Origin: Alcanivorax sp.
Lineage (GTDB): Bacteria; Pseudomonadota; Gammaproteobacteria; Pseudomonadales; Alcanivoracaceae
DNA: 64,000 bases
Direction of reading: 5' to 3'
Assembly: GCA_022565695.1 (NCBI GenBank)
Contig: JAIUME010000007.1
Coordinates: 140,754 to 204,753, forward strand
Shown here: positions 12,157-62,874 of the stretch, piece by piece
Layout: every line of letters begins with the position of its first letter
Position numbering within the stretch: position 1 is the first letter of the stretch
Position numbers and translations under genes: made by a program
Notes under the pieces: generated by a model
Seen by the model: only the letters and a program-made list of their open reading frames with translations
Told to the model about the DNA's origin: nothing
Database searches by the model: none

Positions 12157-14607
12157 ATGACTGAGGATGCCTACGAACAGAAAATGAGGGAATTGCGTCT
12201 GCAATACCTCAAGGCCTTGCCGGCTCACGCCAAGGTGCTGAACGAGCATTGGCGTCGGCTCCGCCATGTGAGCTGGGAAGCACCCTCTGTGCAGGCCATG
12301 TACCAGACAGCGCACAAGCTTGCTGGCAGTGGCACCACCTTTGGTTACGAGGCCATCACCCATACCGCCCGAGAACTGGAAAACCTGCTCAGCCCCATGC
12401 TGGAAACCGGCGAGGTGGCATCGGCTACCCTGCGCGAGGCAATTGATGTGGCCTTGCAGAGCCTCGTGCGCGCGATGGATGCAGCACTCAAGGGCAAGCG
12501 CGTCGTCGAGGCGGCAGCGACCCCCGATGCGCCGATGCCTGCGCCGGCTGATGCCGGGCTCAACGCGCGCATTGCCCTGGTGGAAGATGACGAAGTGCTG
12601 GCGGGGCAGCTGCGCTTGTGGCTGGAGCAGTGGGGCTGTGAAGCCATATGGTTCAGCAACCCGGAGGATTTTGAGCAAGCCCTGACGCGCGGCAACTTTG
12701 ATCTGTTGCTGCTGGATGTCAGTTTTCCCGATGCGCCAATGGGTGGTGTGGACTGGCTGGCGGCGGTGCGCGAGCGTCGTGGGCTGGTGGTGCCCGTGGT
12801 CATGCTCTCGGCACGGACCGATGTGATGTCCCGTTTGCGCGCACTGCGGGCCGGTGCGGCCAGTTATCTGCCCAAGCCGGTGGCCGAGGCCGATCTGAAA
12901 TCCCGTCTTGAGTCATTGCTGACGCACCGTGAAGCCAATCGCGAACGCGTGCTGGTGGTGGACGATGACGCGCAACTTGGCGACTGGCTGCGTGTTGCGA
13001 TGGAAGGGGCTGGTTTCAGCGTCAAGGTGCTGAATCAGCCGTTGGGCATCCTGGATGCGATGGAGCGGGTGAAACCGGATATTCTGGTGCTGGATTACCA
13101 GATGCCGGGCATCAATGGCGTGGAGGTGGCGCGCCTGTTGCGCCAGGACTCGCGCTATCTGGATATTCCGATCATTTTCGTATCCGGTGACGCCAAAGCG
13201 TTTGATCATCAGGAAGAGTTCAGCATTGTCGGCAATGCCTTTCTGACCAAGCCTCTGGACGCGGGCATATTGATTGAAAAGCTGCGTCTGCATCTCGCCA
13301 AGGCGCGACAGGTGTCGCGGCGCATGCAAATGGCCAGTGTCCGGCAGCGCCCGGAAGGGCTGCAGAACCGCGCGTTTTTCCTGGGTGAGCTGAATGATGT
13401 GTTGGCGGCGCGCCGGTTGAGTGGTGATTCGGCCGGAGAGTTGCTGCTGCACTTGATGGTCAGTAACAGTGATTATCTGCGCCAGCGTCACGGTATTGTC
13501 GCGGCAGCCGCATTGCAGGACCGTATTGAGCGACAGCTGGCGGCGCATCCGGCTATCAGCGGTCAGGGATGCCTGTGGGGCGAATTCGTATTTCTGTTGC
13601 GAGTGCGCGTGCCGGAGAATGAACTTGCGGAGGAGTTTGCCGAGAGCCTGCGCCGGCAATTGTCGGAGACGGATTTCGTTTCGAGCGAGGGCCAGAATGC
13701 GATCTTCTGCCTCGGAGGGGCGCTGCTGGACGGCAGTCACGGAAATGTCGAGCAGGCTTTGCGGGTGACGGAGAAAGCCTGCGCCGAGGCACTCAAGAAC
13801 AAGGCAGGCACAACAGTGCTTGCCAGCGGCGATAAAGATCAAGCACGCAAGCCTGCGGATGAGGCGGTGCGCAAGGCGGTGAAGGCGCGCAGCTACAAGT
13901 TGTTCTTTCAGCCGATCGTCAACCTGGAAAGCAACGAACCGTTGTTTGAGGTGTCAGTGCGTCTTGAAGATGAGGGGGGTAACATTTATCCACCGGGCCA
14001 ATTCTTCAGTTTTGTGGAACATTATGCTGAAGGCGGCCTCTCCGGCCTCGATCGCTGGGTGATTGAGAACACCATCAAGGAAATGGCAAGACTGCGCGGC
14101 AAGGAAGCAGAGTCCTGGGCTGTCGTGATCAAGCTGTCGCCGGTGAGTGAGACGCTGGACAAGATGCTGCCCTTTATCGCCAATGTGCTGCAGAACTCAC
14201 GCCTGAAGGGCACTCGGCGGGTGTTCTTCTCCCTGCCGGAAAGCTTCGTTCTGCGGCAACCTGCGCGGGTCGCGGAATTCTATGGGTATCTGCACAAGAT
14301 GAATTGCGGCGTGATCATCGACGAGGTCGGTGCATCAGAAGGGGATAGCGCGCTTGTTGCTGAAGTCGCCGCGCCGGACATGATCAAGCTGGATGCCAGT
14401 TGGAACCAGCGTATTCGTCGCCGCGCCGAAGCGGAGCCGGGTCTGAACAGGCTGATCGAGTATGTCGGCGGCGCGGAGCGTGTCGTTGCAGCCTGCATCG
14501 AGGATGCCCAGATATTTGCTGCCTTCTGGGATTTCGGTATCCGTCACTTCCAGGGGTTCTTTATTCAGGAGCCTGGCGATGCCCTGGCCTTCGAAGCCCA
14601 GGGGTGA
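12157..14607 (+). CDS. HPt-REC-REC response regulator with degenerate GGDEF and EAL domains
   Basis: An 816-residue cytoplasmic signalling protein. An N-terminal HPt domain has the phosphorylatable histidine at H53 in 'TAHKLAGSGTTFG'. Two receiver domains follow: REC1 (about 138-255, D187, K240) and REC2 (about 264-380, D313, K365). The next segment (about 395-555) has the GGDEF fold pattern, but WGEF (474-477) replaces the active signature. The last 240 residues look like an EAL domain (QPIVNLES, VIDEVGASEGD, IKLDASW, FQGFFI), with EVS at 598-600 in place of EAL. So both cyclic-di-GMP enzymatic sites are probably dead and the protein likely acts as a phospho-dependent adaptor or c-di-GMP receptor. 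Partner kinase unknown. Confidence 0.85.
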   Translation: MTEDAYEQKMRELRLQYLKALPAHAKVLNEHWRRLRHVSWEAPSVQAMYQTAHKLAGSGTTFGYEAITHTARELENLLSPMLETGEVASATLREAIDVALQSLVRAMDAALKGKRVVEAAATPDAPMPAPADAGLNARIALVEDDEVLAGQLRLWLEQWGCEAIWFSNPEDFEQALTRGNFDLLLLDVSFPDAPMGGVDWLAAVRERRGLVVPVVMLSARTDVMSRLRALRAGAASYLPKPVAEADLKSRLESLLTHREANRERVLVVDDDAQLGDWLRVAMEGAGFSVKVLNQPLGILDAMERVKPDILVLDYQMPGINGVEVARLLRQDSRYLDIPIIFVSGDAKAFDHQEEFSIVGNAFLTKPLDAGILIEKLRLHLAKARQVSRRMQMASVRQRPEGLQNRAFFLGELNDVLAARRLSGDSAGELLLHLMVSNSDYLRQRHGIVAAAALQDRIERQLAAHPAISGQGCLWGEFVFLLRVRVPENELAEEFAESLRRQLSETDFVSSEGQNAIFCLGGALLDGSHGNVEQALRVTEKACAEALKNKAGTTVLASGDKDQARKPADEAVRKAVKARSYKLFFQPIVNLESNEPLFEVSVRLEDEGGNIYPPGQFFSFVEHYAEGGLSGLDRWVIENTIKEMARLRGKEAESWAVVIKLSPVSETLDKMLPFIANVLQNSRLKGTRRVFFSLPESFVLRQPARVAEFYGYLHKMNCGVIIDEVGASEGDSALVAEVAAPDMIKLDASWNQRIRRRAEAEPGLNRLIEYVGGAERVVAACIEDAQIFAAFWDFGIRHFQGFFIQEPGDALAFEAQG

Positions 14608-21788: not shown

Positions 21789-21844
21789 TTGTACCGGCTG
21801 ACGCCGGCACCGATTGCCCCTCCGGGGGCACGGTGCCACAATGC

Positions 21845-21877
21845 GGGCACTGCCTTTCGGGGCAGTGCCCGTTTTTT
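21845..21877 (+). terminator. Rho-independent terminator of the rpsF operon
   Basis: A 10-bp stem (GGGCACTGCC 21845-21854 with GGCAGTGCCC 21861-21870), a six-base loop and TTTTTT (21872-21877). Confidence 0.92.
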
Positions 21878-21890
21878 GTGTTGGGCCCCC

Positions 21891-21937: not shown

Positions 21938-24823
21938 ATGAATGATGTGACCGGACTAGATCAGCATCTGCCTGAGGCGCTGCGCCTGCCGCCCAATTCT
22001 GTGGAAGCCGAACAGGCTGTCCTGGGCGGCCTGATGATCAATAACGACGCCTGGGATCAGGTGTCCGAGCGGCTGGGGGAGCAGGATTTCTACCGCAAGG
22101 ACCATCGGCTGATCTTCCGCGTCATGGTGCAACTGGTGGAGCAGGACCAGCCCCGGGATCTGGTGACGGTGTCCGAAGCACTGGAGCAGCTGGGGCAACT
22201 GGACACGGCGGGGGGCATTGCCTACCTCTCCGAGCTGTCCCGCAATACCCCCAGTGCCGCGAATATTGCCGCCTACGCGGATATTGTCCGTGAGCGCTCG
22301 ATTCTGCGGCAGCTGATCCAGATCTCCCAGAAAGTGGCCGACCGCGCGTTCCGCCCGGAAGGGGCGTCCAGCAACGAGATTCTGGATCAGGCCGAGTCCG
22401 CCATCTTCGAGATTGCCGAGCAACAGAATCGCGGCACCGGGCCGGAAGGCATCAAGAGCATTCTCAAGAAAGCCGTCGACCGGATCGACGAGCTGTACCG
22501 CACCAAGTCCGCGGTCACCGGCCTGTCCACCGGCTTTACCGAACTCGACCGGATGACCTCCGGCATGCAGCCCGCCGACATGATCGTCGTGGCCGCACGG
22601 CCCTCCATGGGCAAATGCATCATGGCCGGTTCACGCCTGGTGGACCCGGAGACGGGCGCGCTGGTGACCATTGATGCACTGGTGGCGGCCCAGCGCGCGC
22701 GGCTGCTGACCCTGGATGATCGCTTCCGGCTGGGCACCGCCAGTGCCTCGGCGTTCGTCGACGATGGCATCAAGCCGGTGTTCCGCGTACGCACCGCCAG
22801 TGGCCGTGAAATCTGCACCACACTGACGCACCCCTTCCTGACCGGCGACGGCTGGCAACCGCTGGGGCAGATCGGTGTTGGCGAGCGCGTCGCCGTGCCG
22901 CGCCAGATTCCGGTATTCGGCCATGACGCGCTGCCGGAACACGAAGTGCGGGCGCTGGCCTATTTCATTGCCGATGGCGGCACCACGCAGACCTGTCCGA
23001 TGTTCACCAATCGCGATGAGCGTTTGCTGGCGGACTTCGAGCAAGCCGTTGCGGCCTTTGGCGGCCATCAATGTCGACGCATCGATGACGGGCAACGTAC
23101 GCCGACATTACGTGTCAGCCGTGACATGACGCTGATCGCTGACGTGCGGGCCGGGTTTGCCCTGGCCCTGAAGCGATTGCTGACAGAGCTGCGCCTGACC
23201 GGTGAAGCCCTGTCGCAACTGCTGGGCGTGAGCAAGGCCACCGTCAGCTATTGGTGCAACGGTAGAGCGGTGCCCGCCGCAGGCACGTTCGAGCAGCTTT
23301 GTGTGGCGCTGAAAGTCACACCGGCAGAGCTGGGGCTGCCTCGGCATGTTGCCGGTGCGAAGAATGGCCCTAACGGCGTCCGTCTGTTCCTGGAACAGCA
23401 TGGTGTCTGGGCATGCAGCGCCCTGGAAAAAACACTGCCGGATGCGGTATTCCGTTTACCTCGCAACCAGCTTGCCCTGTTCCTGAATCGTCTGTTTGCC
23501 TGCGACGGCAGCGCTTTTGTGCAGGGCAATGGACAGGCCCGGATCAGCTATGCCTCGTCCAGCCCTGCGCTGATTCGTGGTGTGCAGCATCTGCTGTTGC
23601 GCTTCGGTGTCCTGGCCAAGGTGCGTCGCAAGCAGCATCGCTATCCCGGCCTGAAGCAGTCGCCCTGCGAACTGGAAATCATGGACCAGGCCAGCCTGGC
23701 GACCTTTGTTCGCGAGATCGGTATCTTCGGCAAGGAGGATGCGGTGGCGCGTGTTATGGCGGCGCTTGACGGCAAGCGTGCGCACAGCAACCGCGACAGC
23801 CTGCCGCCGTCGGTGAATCGCTATGTGCTGGCCCGCAAGGGGGATGACAGCTGGGCAGACTGTTTTGCCCGTGTCGGGCAGGCATGCCCGCCAGGCTACA
23901 ATCCGCATCTTGTTGGCCGCAGCGAGCGGCACCTGTCCCGGTCGAGAGCAGCAGAGTTTGCCCGGCTGTTTGATGATGACTACCTGGCCAGTCTGGCTAC
24001 TTCGGATGTGTACTGGGACGAGATTACCGCCATCGACTACATCGGCGAGCATCAGGTCTACGATCTGACGGTGCCGGGCACGCACAATTTTGTCGCCGAG
24101 GATTTCTGCGTCCACAACACCACCTTCGCGATGAACCTGGTGGAGCATGTGGCCATCAAGGAAGACAAGCCGGTGCTGGTGTTCTCCATGGAGATGCCCT
24201 CCGATTCGCTGGTCATGCGGATGCTGTCCTCCCTGGGGCGCATCAACCAGCAGAATGTGCGTTCCGGGCGACTGGAAGCGGACGACTGGCCGCGCATCAG
24301 TTCGGCCATTCAGCTGCTGTCCGAGCGCAAGCTGTTCATTGATGACACCGGCGGCCTGTCGCCTATGGAGATGCGCGCCCGGGCCCGTCGTGTGGCGCGG
24401 GAATGCGGTGGGCTGGGCATGATCATGATCGATTATCTGCAGCTGATGCAGGTGCCGGGCTCGGATAACCGGGTCAACGAGATTTCGGAAATCTCCCGCT
24501 CTGTGAAGGGGCTGGCCAAGGAACTGGGTGTGCCGGTGGTGGTGCTCTCGCAGTTGAACCGCTCGCTGGAGCAGCGCCCCAACAAACGGCCGGTGATGTC
24601 TGACCTGCGGGAATCCGGGGCTATCGAGCAGGACGCCGACGTGATCATCTTCCTGTACCGCGATGAGGTCTACAACAAGGACTCGCAGGAAAAGGGCATC
24701 GCCGAGATCATTATCGGCAAGCAGCGGAACGGCCCTATCGGCACCCTCCGTCTGGCATTCCGTGGCGAGTTCACGCGCTTTGATGATCTGGCCCCCGAGT
24801 ACTATCAGGACTATTCGGAATGA
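21938..24823 (+). CDS. dnaB: Replicative DNA helicase DnaB, interrupted by an intein
   Basis: A 961-residue precursor. Residues 1-226 and 728-961 together make a 460-residue DnaB of normal length, the hexameric 5'-to-3' helicase of the replication fork. The N-extein has the helical DnaG-interacting domain ('LPPNSVEAEQAVLGGLM') and RecA-fold start. The Walker A motif is split: 'AARPSMGK' ends at K226 and 'TTFAMN' resumes at T728. The C-extein has Walker B ('GLGMIMIDYLQLM'), 'LSQLNRSLEQRP' and 'SDLRESGAIEQDAD'. DnaB is inactive until the intein is removed by protein splicing. alr follows 40 bases later. Confidence 0.96.
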   Translation: MNDVTGLDQHLPEALRLPPNSVEAEQAVLGGLMINNDAWDQVSERLGEQDFYRKDHRLIFRVMVQLVEQDQPRDLVTVSEALEQLGQLDTAGGIAYLSELSRNTPSAANIAAYADIVRERSILRQLIQISQKVADRAFRPEGASSNEILDQAESAIFEIAEQQNRGTGPEGIKSILKKAVDRIDELYRTKSAVTGLSTGFTELDRMTSGMQPADMIVVAARPSMGKCIMAGSRLVDPETGALVTIDALVAAQRARLLTLDDRFRLGTASASAFVDDGIKPVFRVRTASGREICTTLTHPFLTGDGWQPLGQIGVGERVAVPRQIPVFGHDALPEHEVRALAYFIADGGTTQTCPMFTNRDERLLADFEQAVAAFGGHQCRRIDDGQRTPTLRVSRDMTLIADVRAGFALALKRLLTELRLTGEALSQLLGVSKATVSYWCNGRAVPAAGTFEQLCVALKVTPAELGLPRHVAGAKNGPNGVRLFLEQHGVWACSALEKTLPDAVFRLPRNQLALFLNRLFACDGSAFVQGNGQARISYASSSPALIRGVQHLLLRFGVLAKVRRKQHRYPGLKQSPCELEIMDQASLATFVREIGIFGKEDAVARVMAALDGKRAHSNRDSLPPSVNRYVLARKGDDSWADCFARVGQACPPGYNPHLVGRSERHLSRSRAAEFARLFDDDYLASLATSDVYWDEITAIDYIGEHQVYDLTVPGTHNFVAEDFCVHNTTFAMNLVEHVAIKEDKPVLVFSMEMPSDSLVMRMLSSLGRINQQNVRSGRLEADDWPRISSAIQLLSERKLFIDDTGGLSPMEMRARARRVARECGGLGMIMIDYLQLMQVPGSDNRVNEISEISRSVKGLAKELGVPVVVLSQLNRSLEQRPNKRPVMSDLRESGAIEQDADVIIFLYRDEVYNKDSQEKGIAEIIIGKQRNGPIGTLRLAFRGEFTRFDDLAPEYYQDYSE
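22616..24118 (+). mobile_element. DnaB intein (501 residues) with LAGLIDADG endonuclease and embedded XRE-type HTH
   Basis: The intein begins at Cys227 of the precursor (CIMAGSRLVDPETG, block A) and ends with FCVHN at Asn727; the +1 extein residue is Thr. Block B has the T-x-x-H motif (TLTHPF), and blocks F/G are 'VYDLTVPGTHNFVAEDFC' and VHN. All splicing residues are therefore present. Two LAGLIDADG-type helices keep their acidic residues: 'ALAYFIADGG' (intein residue ~112) and 'FLNRLFACDG' (~290), so the homing endonuclease may be active. Between them, at about 185-235, is a Cro/CI-type helix-turn-helix (LSQLLGVSKATVSYWCNG), unusual for an intein. The insertion point in Walker A is a known DnaB intein site. 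Confidence 0.95.
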
Positions 24824-59382: not shown

Positions 59383-62300
59383 ATGTTCACACTCTGGCAA
59401 CTCGGCAGCCTGTCACTGCTGTATGTGCTGATCCTGTTCGCGATTGCCTGGTGGGGGGATCGTGCTGCCCGCCGTCGCTCTCGGCTCGTCAACAATCCCT
59501 GGACCTACAGCCTCGCTCTCGGGGTGTATTGCACCTCCTGGACCTTCTTCGGTGCAGTGGGCGAAGCGGCCAATCATGGCTGGAGTTACCTGCCGATCTA
59601 TCTGGGCCCCATCTTTCTGGTGGTGTTCGGTGGCGCCGTGATCCTCAAGATCGTCACCCTCGGCAAACAGCAACGCATTACCTCCATTGCCGATTTCATT
59701 GCCGCCCGCTATGGCAAGAACCAGCGCCTGGCCATGCTTGTGACAATGATCGCGCTGGTGGGCGTGCTGCCCTACATTGCCCTGCAGCTCAAGGCGGTGA
59801 CGCTGGCCTTCGATGTCCTGACGCCCGGCGAAGGGCATATGGCCGGAAATATGGACAGCGCCCTGATCGTTGCCTTGCTGATGGCAGCCTTTACGCTGCT
59901 GTTCGGCACCCGGCACCTGGACGCGACGGAACACCAGTCCGGGCTGATGCTGGCGGTGGCTTTCGAATCTTTCGTCAAGCTGGTGGCGTTTATCGCGGTG
60001 GGCCTGTTCTGCCTGTTCTATGTGTTTGATGGCGCGGGCGGGTTTTTCAGTAACGAGGAGGTCAGGGTACTCGCCGGCGATCTGTTCTCGTCCGGTTGGC
60101 TGGAGCAGGATTTCATTGCGCAGTTTCTGCTGGCCATGGCGGCCATCATCTGTCTGCCACGGCAGTTCCACGCCGCCGTTGTCGAGAACAATGACTTGCG
60201 GCACCTGCGCACCGCACGTTGGGTATTGCCGGTTTATCTGGGTATTTTTGCTGTGCTGGTGCTGCCCATCGCATTGGCCGGGCTGGTGCAGCAGCCCCAG
60301 TTTGCCGGGCAGGCTGATCTCTATGTGCTGACCCTGCCGATGCTGGAAGGCCCCGCCTGGCTGACGCTGCTGGTGTTTCTCGGCGGCATAGCTGCTGCTA
60401 CCGGGATGGTGATTGTCTCCACCATTGCTGTCGCCATCATGCTGACCAATGAAGTCCTGCTGCCGCTGTGGTTGCGCCGCCGCGTGAACCTGCACAACGA
60501 CCTGGAGGAACTGGGCGCCAATGTGCGCAGCCTGCGCCGCATCGCGATTGTGGTGGTGTTGCTGCTGGCCTTCATGTTCCACCAGATGATGCTGGATTTT
60601 ACCCGCCTCACCAGCATCGGCCTGTTGTCCTTCGCCGCCATTGCACAGTTTGCCCCGGCGCTGTTCGGTGGCCTTTACTGGCGCGGTGGGCATGCGCGCG
60701 GTGCGGCCATCGGCCTGATGGTGGGGTTTGTGGTCTGGGCGTTCTGCCTGTTGTTGCCCGGTCTGGCCTCCGCAGAATGGCTGGCCCGCGCCAACGCAGA
60801 GGGGGTGCTGGGATTGGGTATCCTGCGGCCGCAGATGTTGCTGGGGCTGGACGGCATGTCGCCGCTGGCCCATGGCGTGCTCTGGAGCCTGGGGTTGAAT
60901 ACCGCGGCCTACATCTGGTTTTCCCGCCGTGCACATGTCTCGTCGCTGGATCGCTCCCAGGCAACCCTGTTTGTCGATATGCCCCTGGACTGGTGGCGCG
61001 ATGCGGATACCTCCGGCCTGGTCACACAGGGCGAGCTGATGGATCTGGCAGGCCGTTGCCTGGGCATGGGGCGGGCGGAAACCCTGTTCCGCGAACATGC
61101 TGAAAAACAGCAGTTTCTCTGGCAGCCGGAACTGCCGGCGCCGCTGCATCTGGTGCGTCTCACCGAGCGGTTGCTGGCGGGTGCCATGGGAGCCAGCTCC
61201 GCGCGCATCCTGTTGGGCACCTTGTTAACCAAACAGGAAGCAGACCGGCATGAAGTGGCGCGCATCATGGATGAAGCATCACAGCTGATTCAATTCAATC
61301 ATCAGTTGTTGCGCACCACCATCGAGACCATCAACCAGGGCATCTGCGTGGTGGATCGGGAGTTGAATATCGTGGCGTGGAACCGCGCCTATGAGCGCCT
61401 GTTCGATTACCCGGATGGACTGATCCGGCTGGGCCGAGCCATTGCAGATGTGTACCGCTATAACGCGCGGCTTGGCTATTACGGTGAGGGCGATATCCAT
61501 GATCAGGTACGCCGCCGGGTCAATCTGTTACGCGAGGGGTCTGCCCACAGCTTCGAGCGGGTGCTGCCCAACGGTACGGTGATTGAAGTCTCCGGCATGC
61601 CGATGCCCGGTGGCGGTTTCGTCAGTACCTTTCTGGACATCACTGCACGCAAACGGGATGAATGGACGCTGCGGGAAATTAACGAAAATCTGGAGCAGAT
61701 CGTGGCGGACCGCACCCGCCGATTGTCCGAAGTGAACGAACGGTTGCAATCCGCCATTGCAGAAGCCCAGCGGGCCAACCAGGGCAAGACCCTTTTCCTT
61801 GCGGCGGCGGGGCATGACCTGATGCAGCCGCTGAATGCCGCGCATCTGTTCTGCTCGTCGTTGCAGCAGAAATTCCAGTCCGGGACCATGGACGATGTCG
61901 GGCGCGCCCAGGAAATGCTCGGCAACATCAGTGGTGCGCTGGAGGCCGCCGAAAGCCTGATCAGTGATTTGCTGGATATCAGTCGACTGGATACAGGCGC
62001 CATGCCGGTGGACCAGCGGCCAGTGGCGCTGGATCGCGTACTGCATAATCTGGCTGCCGAATTTCACGCCATGGCTGAAGCACGCCATCTGCGCATGCGC
62101 TGGCGCATGGCTGACGTCATGATTCACACCGATGAGAAGCTTCTGCGCCGCGTGTTGCAGAATCTGCTCGGCAATGCGGTGCGGTATACGACGACCGGCA
62201 AGATACTGCTGGGTTGCCGTCGGCAACCCGGCGCGGTGCGTATCGAGGTGTGGGATACCGGCACCGGCATCACGGAGGAAGAGCAAAAGGAAATATTCCG

Positions 62301-62874
62301 CGAGTTCAAACGGCTGCCCAGCAGTGAGCAGCACGGCAAGGGGCTGGGGTTGGGGCTGGCGATTGCCGAGCGTATCTGCAAACTGCTCGGGCACAAGATT
62401 GCGGTGCGTTCCTGGCCGGGTCGGGGCACGGTGTTTTCGGTTACGGTGCCACTGGCGGACGGGGCCAGTCGCCCGGAGGAAACAGCTATGACATCTTTCG
62501 TGCCTCGCCGGCTGGATGGGATGACGGTGCTGTGTGTGGACAATGACGCCACGATTCTGGCCGGGCTGCAGGCCCTTCTGGAAGAGTGGGACTGCCATGT
62601 GCTGTGTGCCCGCTCGGAGGCAGAAGCCCACGCCTTGCTGGCGCCTGACAAGGTACCGGATATGCTGCTGGTGGATTATCAGCTGGACAATGACGAGAAC
62701 GGGTTTGATGTGATCCGCTCGCTGGACCAGCGTTGGGATGATGCCGTGCCAGCGGTGCTGATGACCGCCAATCACGACCCGGCAGTACGCCAGCGTGCGT
62801 TACAGGAAGGGCTGGTATTTCTGCAGAAGCCGGTGGATGCCGAGACGCTGTATCAGACCCTGACGTCGCTGTAA
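59383..62874 (+). CDS. crbS: CrbS/MxtR-type sensor histidine kinase with symporter domain
   Basis: A 1163-residue hybrid kinase. An SSS-type symporter domain of about 13 helices (1-500) is followed by a linker (about 520-640, STAC-like), a PAS domain (about 650-770), a histidine kinase core with H811 in 'AAAGHDLMQPLNA', and an ATPase domain ('GKGLGLGLAIAERI'). A C-terminal receiver has D1098 in 'LLVDYQLDND'. This architecture defines CrbS/MxtR, which with CrbR/ErdR controls acetate assimilation (the acetate switch) in Vibrio and Pseudomonas. Naming is by architecture and by its neighbours acs, crbR and the symporter. Confidence 0.88.
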   Translation: MFTLWQLGSLSLLYVLILFAIAWWGDRAARRRSRLVNNPWTYSLALGVYCTSWTFFGAVGEAANHGWSYLPIYLGPIFLVVFGGAVILKIVTLGKQQRITSIADFIAARYGKNQRLAMLVTMIALVGVLPYIALQLKAVTLAFDVLTPGEGHMAGNMDSALIVALLMAAFTLLFGTRHLDATEHQSGLMLAVAFESFVKLVAFIAVGLFCLFYVFDGAGGFFSNEEVRVLAGDLFSSGWLEQDFIAQFLLAMAAIICLPRQFHAAVVENNDLRHLRTARWVLPVYLGIFAVLVLPIALAGLVQQPQFAGQADLYVLTLPMLEGPAWLTLLVFLGGIAAATGMVIVSTIAVAIMLTNEVLLPLWLRRRVNLHNDLEELGANVRSLRRIAIVVVLLLAFMFHQMMLDFTRLTSIGLLSFAAIAQFAPALFGGLYWRGGHARGAAIGLMVGFVVWAFCLLLPGLASAEWLARANAEGVLGLGILRPQMLLGLDGMSPLAHGVLWSLGLNTAAYIWFSRRAHVSSLDRSQATLFVDMPLDWWRDADTSGLVTQGELMDLAGRCLGMGRAETLFREHAEKQQFLWQPELPAPLHLVRLTERLLAGAMGASSARILLGTLLTKQEADRHEVARIMDEASQLIQFNHQLLRTTIETINQGICVVDRELNIVAWNRAYERLFDYPDGLIRLGRAIADVYRYNARLGYYGEGDIHDQVRRRVNLLREGSAHSFERVLPNGTVIEVSGMPMPGGGFVSTFLDITARKRDEWTLREINENLEQIVADRTRRLSEVNERLQSAIAEAQRANQGKTLFLAAAGHDLMQPLNAAHLFCSSLQQKFQSGTMDDVGRAQEMLGNISGALEAAESLISDLLDISRLDTGAMPVDQRPVALDRVLHNLAAEFHAMAEARHLRMRWRMADVMIHTDEKLLRRVLQNLLGNAVRYTTTGKILLGCRRQPGAVRIEVWDTGTGITEEEQKEIFREFKRLPSSEQHGKGLGLGLAIAERICKLLGHKIAVRSWPGRGTVFSVTVPLADGASRPEETAMTSFVPRRLDGMTVLCVDNDATILAGLQALLEEWDCHVLCARSEAEAHALLAPDKVPDMLLVDYQLDNDENGFDVIRSLDQRWDDAVPAVLMTANHDPAVRQRALQEGLVFLQKPVDAETLYQTLTSL

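Follow-up and report, generated by a model that had tools for sequence, protein, structure and literature searches.

Some homing inteins carry more than a splicing (HINT) domain and a LAGLIDADG endonuclease. In passages of PMC8966425, TliVMA (PDB 7qss) and PI-TkoII are described as having, in addition, an accessory domain that resembles helix-turn-helix (HTH) proteins. According to the same passages, TliVMA without this domain no longer cuts a second site, grafting of the domain onto another intein confers cutting of that site, and the capture of accessory domains from transcription factors has been proposed. Two insertion sites of inteins in the helicase DnaB, the P-loop (Walker A) site and the H4 site, are named b and a, respectively, in passages of PMC6195587. 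Here we describe an intein at the P-loop site of DnaB from Alcanivorax sp. (GenBank assembly GCA_022565695.1, contig JAIUME010000007.1), in which a predicted HTH domain of the XRE/Cro-CI type is found not behind the endonuclease but between its two LAGLIDADG repeats. The window is the whole stretch analysed, 64,000 nucleotides (nt) at positions 140,754 to 204,753 of the contig, and window coordinates are used throughout.

The dnaB open reading frame (ORF) encodes a DnaB of 961 amino acids (aa), insert included (Table 1). An earlier reading of the window, made from the letters alone (the sequence-only reading), had claimed a 501-residue intein within the Walker A motif. Its boundaries, length and site (GK/C...HN/TT) were exactly as claimed, with the insertion point at the Walker A Lys/Thr junction (ARPSMGK/C...HN/TTFAMN). 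Judged by its sequence, the element has all features of a class 1 intein, namely Cys1, T69xxH72 of block B, His500-Asn501 and Thr at position +1, and the Pfam model Intein_splicing (PF14890, E 2.9e-20) spans residues 14–501. The splicing residues Cys1, T69xxH72 and His500-Asn501, correctly listed as retained in the sequence-only reading, are invariant in all 83 aligned inteins, the source intein counted. The same is true of the two LAGLIDADG catalytic acids, D120 and D297, which are 177 residues apart (about 175 had been estimated). Both a LAGLIDADG_3 (PF14528) match, the only one in the whole source genome, and two repeats in the AlphaFold2 model point to a two-repeat LAGLIDADG architecture. 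The model, built from the 83-row alignment, has a mean predicted local distance difference test score (pLDDT) of 93.4 and a predicted template-modelling score (pTM) of 0.90. Of the PDB entries matched by the whole model, the TliVMA homing intein 7qss ranks first (E 4.4e-19, template-modelling score (TM) 0.68 to target), and the other top matches are homing inteins as well: the deletion form of 7qss, PI-PfuI, PhoVMA and, in fifth place, 2cw7, which we take to be PI-TkoII. NF005852, presumably a model built on a mycobacterial intein-bearing DnaB, matches residues 250–501. Class 3 inteins have no N-terminal nucleophile; with Cys1, an endonuclease, an XRE domain and Thr at +1, the source intein falls outside the class 3 P-loop type. 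We regard it as a mobile class 1 intein with a LAGLIDADG homing endonuclease, which would splice, cut and home, judging from its intact residues and from what is established for LAGLIDADG inteins.

The HTH that the sequence-only reading had placed between the LAGLIDADG helices is confirmed by profile and model comparisons, which identify residues 182–239 as an XRE/Cro-CI HTH with a predicted fold. Three Pfam models match at 182/185–239 above their curated cut-offs: HTH_31 (E 2.6e-10, 40.9 bits against 27), HTH_3 (E 5.2e-9, 36.4 bits against 23) and HTH_26 (28.7 bits against 22). A PHROGs transcription-regulator family matches residues 180–239 (E 3.9e-8). When the XRE-domain profile was compared with PDB sequences, it matched a LexA-named protein (E 2.4e-10), P22 C2 repressor, HigA-2 antitoxin and MBF1. 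In the AlphaFold2 model the unit consists of helices 171–191, 196–203, 207–214 and 222–232, so that the HTH fold expected at about 185–235 is indeed predicted. Folded alone from 57 rows, the segment has a mean pLDDT of 75 and a pTM of 0.58. Foldseek matches of the lone segment are mainly XRE regulators, including C.AhdI (TM 0.87 to target), C.BclI, ClgR, C.Esp1396I and lambda repressor; the list also holds enzymes annotated HppE and MPnS. For so short a segment (1y7y at TM 0.87, 2b5a at 0.82) the best E was 2.2e-3, with no match at E 0.001. The Pfam scores over cut-off, the profile, the AlphaFold2 model and Foldseek together rule out a chance HTH pattern.

The domain lies between LAGLIDADG repeats 1 and 2, with D120 and D297 on either side. 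In HTH-less relatives, the end of repeat 1 is followed directly by the linker that begins near residue 250 in the source intein. Matches of these relatives to the family profile stop before the XRE positions and resume after them, as in a clean insertion. A separate helical region, residues 386–462, sits between repeat 2 and the C-terminal part of HINT, as in accessory-domain homing inteins of the TliVMA type. It had no PDB profile matches, and its Pfam matches are weak and scattered. By eye this region looks HTH-like, and hhalign places it in register with the XRE profile, at E 0.01 and a probability of only 4%; it could be a second, older HTH.

We then asked how common this arrangement is. 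Among genome contigs 355 relatives were found and the best 80, ranked by similarity to the XRE-bearing query, were kept. Of these, 78 could be extracted whole (L052 and L102, being incomplete, were excluded), and together with the source intein and four inteins from class genomes (L017–L020) they form alignment A3 of 83 rows. All 78 extracted inteins occupy the same site (MGK/C or VGK/C ... HN/T). By name, their hosts are 34 Cyanobacteriota, 33 Pseudomonadota, 7 Chloroflexota and 4 Actinomycetota. The XRE segment is present in 83/83 rows, spanning four phyla, a figure that is biased because the rows were ranked and gathered by XRE-bearing queries. Over residues 176–239, one row (L108) has a two-residue gap and seven have insertions, of a single residue in six and of 8 residues in L086. 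R178, W213 and P220 are invariant in all rows, the hydrophobic pattern is kept, and the motif W..[GA]...P occurs in 82 of the 83. With a threshold of E 0.001, 53/83 rows have a Pfam HTH_3 call and 49/83 an HTH_31 call, so that over a third of the rows fall below each single model despite aligning. A second intein, identified by pattern, is present at the H4 site in 26 of the 64 dnaB ORFs readable that far.

A less biased sample than A3, covering the host class, is a draw of 369 class genomes, in which 19 had a match at E 1e-8, the source genome counted; one of them (G226) is mostly masked and not readable. A second draw of 369 around another centre returned identical matches except for the source genome. 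Nine DnaB P-loop inteins were readable in this sample, and eight of them, including the source intein, have the XRE domain (three come from one genus, g201). The ninth, L026 (288 aa), is devoid of both endonuclease and HTH. The domain is absent from the H4-site DnaB inteins (L021, L023, L024, L025, L030, L032) and the DnaE inteins (L022, L027, L028) at class loci. A short related intein of 244 aa (L029) follows a CLGK motif in a class-genome gene that by eye resembles dCTP deaminase.

Absence of the domain is also the rule among more distant relatives. Of 108 viral relatives 80 were kept, and 72 records (65 distinct) had both ends matched; 61 of the 72 are located between GK and S or T. None of the 72 matches the family profile through residues 185–210 or shows W..[GA]...P, and the same holds for all 38 records (32 distinct) of H4-site DnaB inteins. 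Both sets were gathered from split matches only; absence of the XRE domain is also backed by the full listing of profile matches, and no viral ORF among the 80 kept matches continuously through the XRE positions. The host genes of seven viral precursors encode a DnaB-like helicase (3), a terminase (2), a Sak4-like AAA protein (1) and an unassigned protein (1). An initial viral scan with the source protein gave no matches. Six of the nine matched phage or plasmid records were read (records H3, H4 and H9 fell outside the reading), all without the XRE domain. In these viral, phage and plasmid records, a phage origin of the XRE-bearing form finds no support. In L083 and L199 the XRE positions of the profile also have stray matches, which lie outside the intein. 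In DnaB of a Euzebya pacifica plasmid (L008:1501-2931), a P-loop intein has no XRE match. It is placed outside the XRE family in our tree, on a long branch of unsure position, so that more than one lineage may have colonised the P-loop site. This plasmid intein has a different, unassigned stretch between its LAGLIDADG repeats, and the same DnaB is interrupted again, by a short intein, at the H4 site.

Taken together, these sequence comparisons suggest that an HTH between LAGLIDADG repeats defines a family of DnaB P-loop inteins and is usual at that site. Other DnaB inteins with this layout, which the sequence-only reading had proposed to look for, are indeed found, and they rule out that the XRE-bearing form is a peculiarity of the source genome. 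As to the possibility, also raised there, that the arrangement is simply the norm for DnaB inteins, this holds by half: it is usual at the P-loop (8/9, and all of the biased A3), but H4-site inteins are without it (0/38).

Close to the host, the distribution is patchy. Within the genus the intein is present in one of six other genomes (G004, 96% identical), and within the family in two of 46, the source genome counted. The nearest named relative, L040, from a metagenome-assembled genome (MAG) of Alcanivorax sp. DS1.3.55, is likewise 96% identical. A search with the N-extein in 28 genomes, including the source, found the intein in the source and G004, and an uninterrupted P-loop in the other 26. 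Four weak partial matches (L004–L007) were also seen in relatives. The dnaB gene of the closest intein-less relative, G002 (L228), shows seven silent differences from the source, all within -28 to +12 of the insertion site, and none from -63 to -29 or from +13 to +65 (stretches of about 35 and 53 nt on the upstream and downstream sides, respectively). This clustering is suggestive of co-conversion, or it may be chance.

Next, we addressed the origin of the domain with a tree of 128 inteins, from which residues 171–250 of the XRE-bearing rows had been removed; rows shorter than 340 aa, duplicates and near-copies were left out. The method was quick and several branches are long. The 44 XRE-bearing rows form one side of a single branch (Shimodaira–Hasegawa-like approximate likelihood ratio test 100), and most other groups are scattered. 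Most simply, these sequences would be read as one capture of the XRE domain with subsequent spread. Within the XRE group, phylum labels need 4 changes against a minimum of 3, a weak indication of some transfer between phyla; many of the hosts are MAGs. The ratio of nonsynonymous to synonymous substitution rates (dN/dS), pooled over 25 pairs with no sequence in common, reaches 0.25 in the XRE domain, against 0.13 and 0.12 in the two endonuclease repeats; the linker stands at 0.16, the C-terminal accessory region at 0.17 and the HINT parts at 0.11 and 0.05. Between the source intein and L040 it is 0.07 for the XRE domain and 0 to 0.06 for the other segments. The XRE domain is under purifying selection, yet it is the fastest-evolving and least constrained of the seven segments.

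What might the domain do? In our judgement this is probably a mobile class 1 homing intein whose endonuclease gained an XRE accessory DNA-binding module for recognition of the homing site. The intein would excise itself from DnaB, and the released protein, a two-repeat LAGLIDADG homing endonuclease, would cut the Walker A (P-loop) codons of intein-less dnaB, whereupon repair of the cut dnaB would copy the intein in. The XRE domain, on present evidence inserted a single time where repeat 1 ends and the linker to repeat 2 follows, and retained since, would contact dnaB DNA beside the cut and tune which P-loop sequence is recognised. Speaking for this reading are the invariant splicing and endonuclease residues, the whole-model match to a homing intein, the XRE fold indicated by Pfam, PDB profile and Foldseek comparisons, the clean insertion relative to HTH-less homologues, the single branch in the tree, the low dN/dS, and the patchy occurrence next to empty sites. 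Because the TliVMA accessory domain alters the sites cut, the XRE domain, by analogy, most likely adjusts which DNA is cut. Several observations weigh against such a role. In passages of PMC8966425, TliVMA without its accessory domain still cuts the homing site, albeit with reduced DNA binding, and the isolated domain seemingly adds nothing to overall affinity. On average the XRE domain has little net charge (+1.3, range -6 to +8), several positions of its presumed recognition helix differ between hosts, and its top dN/dS fits relaxed constraint equally with target tracking. In addition, among 398 phylum genomes drawn, the source genome was the sole match at E 1e-8, so the intein is rare nearby. 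Finally, DNA identity between the source and G004 (89.8% for the intein, 85.5% and 90.0% for the exteins) shows the intein to be about as diverged as its exteins and thus does not demonstrate recent homing within the genus.

The low charge, the variable recognition helix and the highest dN/dS also speak for an XRE domain that no longer reads DNA and either serves as a folded spacer positioning the LAGLIDADG repeats or HINT, or affects precursor folding and splicing. HTH-less relatives retain the same repeats and linker, which counts on the same side and means that the overall architecture can do without the domain. On the other hand, the domain with its invariant residues and hydrophobic pattern persists throughout A3 in all four phyla, and the reduced intein L026, the only one of its kind seen, lost endonuclease and HTH together; loss of DNA reading thus strikes us as rather unlikely. 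XRE domains are typically repressors, and the GIY-YIG endonuclease I-TevI is known for autorepression. The spliced-out intein might similarly bind an operator near dnaB through its XRE domain and limit expression, in line with the PHROGs match. We hold this to be improbable: the inverted repeats that precede dnaB are a terminator-like hairpin and short palindromes, none outstanding, and the search of that region in the window gave no convincing operator candidate. The hairpin, at 21837-21878 between rplI and dnaB, has 18-nt arms that are 83% complementary. A switch serving the host, in which DNA contact of the XRE domain or a cofactor alters splicing of the P-loop-interrupted helicase, seems to us very improbable. 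Passages of PMC6195587 do report conditional splicing for another P-loop DnaB intein, but that one is a class 3 mini-intein without endonuclease; moreover, the source intein is missing from most relatives, as expected of a selfish element. For the idea in the sequence-only reading that the intein senses or regulates its host gene, we found nothing in support, the question having been barely probed.

Homing-site recognition remains the role we favor. The suggestion in the sequence-only reading that the domain could widen or anchor target recognition is accordingly plausible, although its near-neutral charge and the mixed results for the TliVMA accessory domain call for caution. A bolder version of this role, which we offer tentatively and with some doubt, is that the intein acquired the XRE domain as a targeting module: a relative of the viral inteins found at Walker A sites of several ATPase genes would have captured it once, become a dnaB specialist and reached four phyla, with recognition residues evolving along with the local dnaB sequence. 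If true, this would be a natural example of a meganuclease retargeted through an inbuilt repressor domain. The family bears on how homing endonucleases acquire accessory DNA-binding domains and on the function of such domains. Here a recognisable domain was apparently captured a single time, at an unusual position within the endonuclease, and HTH-less relatives are at hand for comparison; the family could provide a natural model for fusing meganucleases with DNA-binding domains.

The features of the locus are collected in Table 1. Elsewhere in the window, a PAS/HATPase/receiver hybrid (1163 aa, 59383-62874) and a receiver-EAL protein (816 aa, 12157-14607) are apparently ordinary signalling genes.

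Table 1. Features of the intein-bearing dnaB gene in window coordinates; residue numbers are those of the intein.
Feature	Position	Strand	Basis
dnaB N-extein, 226 aa, ends ARPSMGK	21938..22615	+	ORF 21938-24823; PF00772, PF03796
Intein, 501 aa, class 1 type (Cys1, +1 Thr)	22616..24118	+	PF14890 E 2.9e-20; AlphaFold2 model
HINT N-terminal part (residues 1-100), including C1 and T69xxH72	22616..22915	+	sequence and model
LAGLIDADG repeat 1, residues 108-170 (LAYFIADGG, Asp120)	22937..23125	+	sequence and model
Predicted XRE/Cro-CI HTH domain, residues 171-240 (Pfam core 182-239)	23126..23335	+	Pfam, profile, model, Foldseek
Presumed recognition helix of XRE domain, residues 207-214	23234..23257	+	model helix; role by analogy with XRE proteins
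Linker, residues 241-282; later part common to HTH-less relatives	23336..23461	+	comparison with relatives
LAGLIDADG repeat 2, residues 283-385 (LFACDGS, Asp297)	23462..23770	+	PF14528 best stretch 285-369, 79 bits; model
C-terminal accessory region, residues 386-462, helical	23771..24001	+	AlphaFold2 model; 7qss match
HINT C-terminal part, residues 463-501, ends His500-Asn501	24002..24118	+	TIGR01443; model
dnaB C-extein, begins TTFAMN, includes stop	24119..24823	+	ORF, Pfam

Our literature searches, which covered open-access papers only, found no description of an XRE domain between LAGLIDADG repeats, in agreement with the sequence-only reading, to which the layout was not known as a described class. 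A survey of inteins by Pietrokovski from the 1990s may mention HTH motifs in some of them, and HTH_XRE may already be flagged in such DnaB proteins by automatic annotation. Passages of PMC8966425, PMC6195587, PMC8987985, PMC3029335, PMC4853749 and PMC3196547 do not describe the layout.

Compared with known systems, the source intein shares individual parts with several and the full arrangement with none of those considered here. C.AhdI, P22 C2 and HigA-2, all XRE/HTH_3 regulators, have the fold and belong to the sequence family of residues 182–239, but they are free regulators, whereas here the domain is inside a homing endonuclease. Viral P-loop inteins of terminase, DnaB-like helicase and Sak4-like genes have homologous HINT and endonuclease parts and differ in having no XRE domain in any of the 72 records. 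According to passages of PMC6195587, the mycobacterial DnaBi1 and the Mycobacterium leprae DnaB intein are likewise inserted in the DnaB P-loop, but they are of class 3 with Ser at +1, and DnaBi1 has no endonuclease. The H4-site inteins of M. smegmatis (DnaBi2) and M. tuberculosis are described in the same passages as class 1 with an endonuclease; the 38 inspected H4-site records, a set that includes Nocardia L009 and no mycobacterial ones, differ from the source intein in being without the XRE domain. Closest are TliVMA and PI-TkoII, which also combine HINT, a two-repeat LAGLIDADG endonuclease and an accessory domain, TliVMA likewise in a P-loop. Their accessory domain, as passages of PMC8966425 describe it, is between the endonuclease and the C-terminal part of HINT, whereas the source intein has its XRE domain between the repeats, plus a separate C-terminal accessory region. 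Thus, HTH-like accessory domains behind the endonuclease are already known; what appears to be new here is an XRE domain between the repeats as a standing feature of a family.

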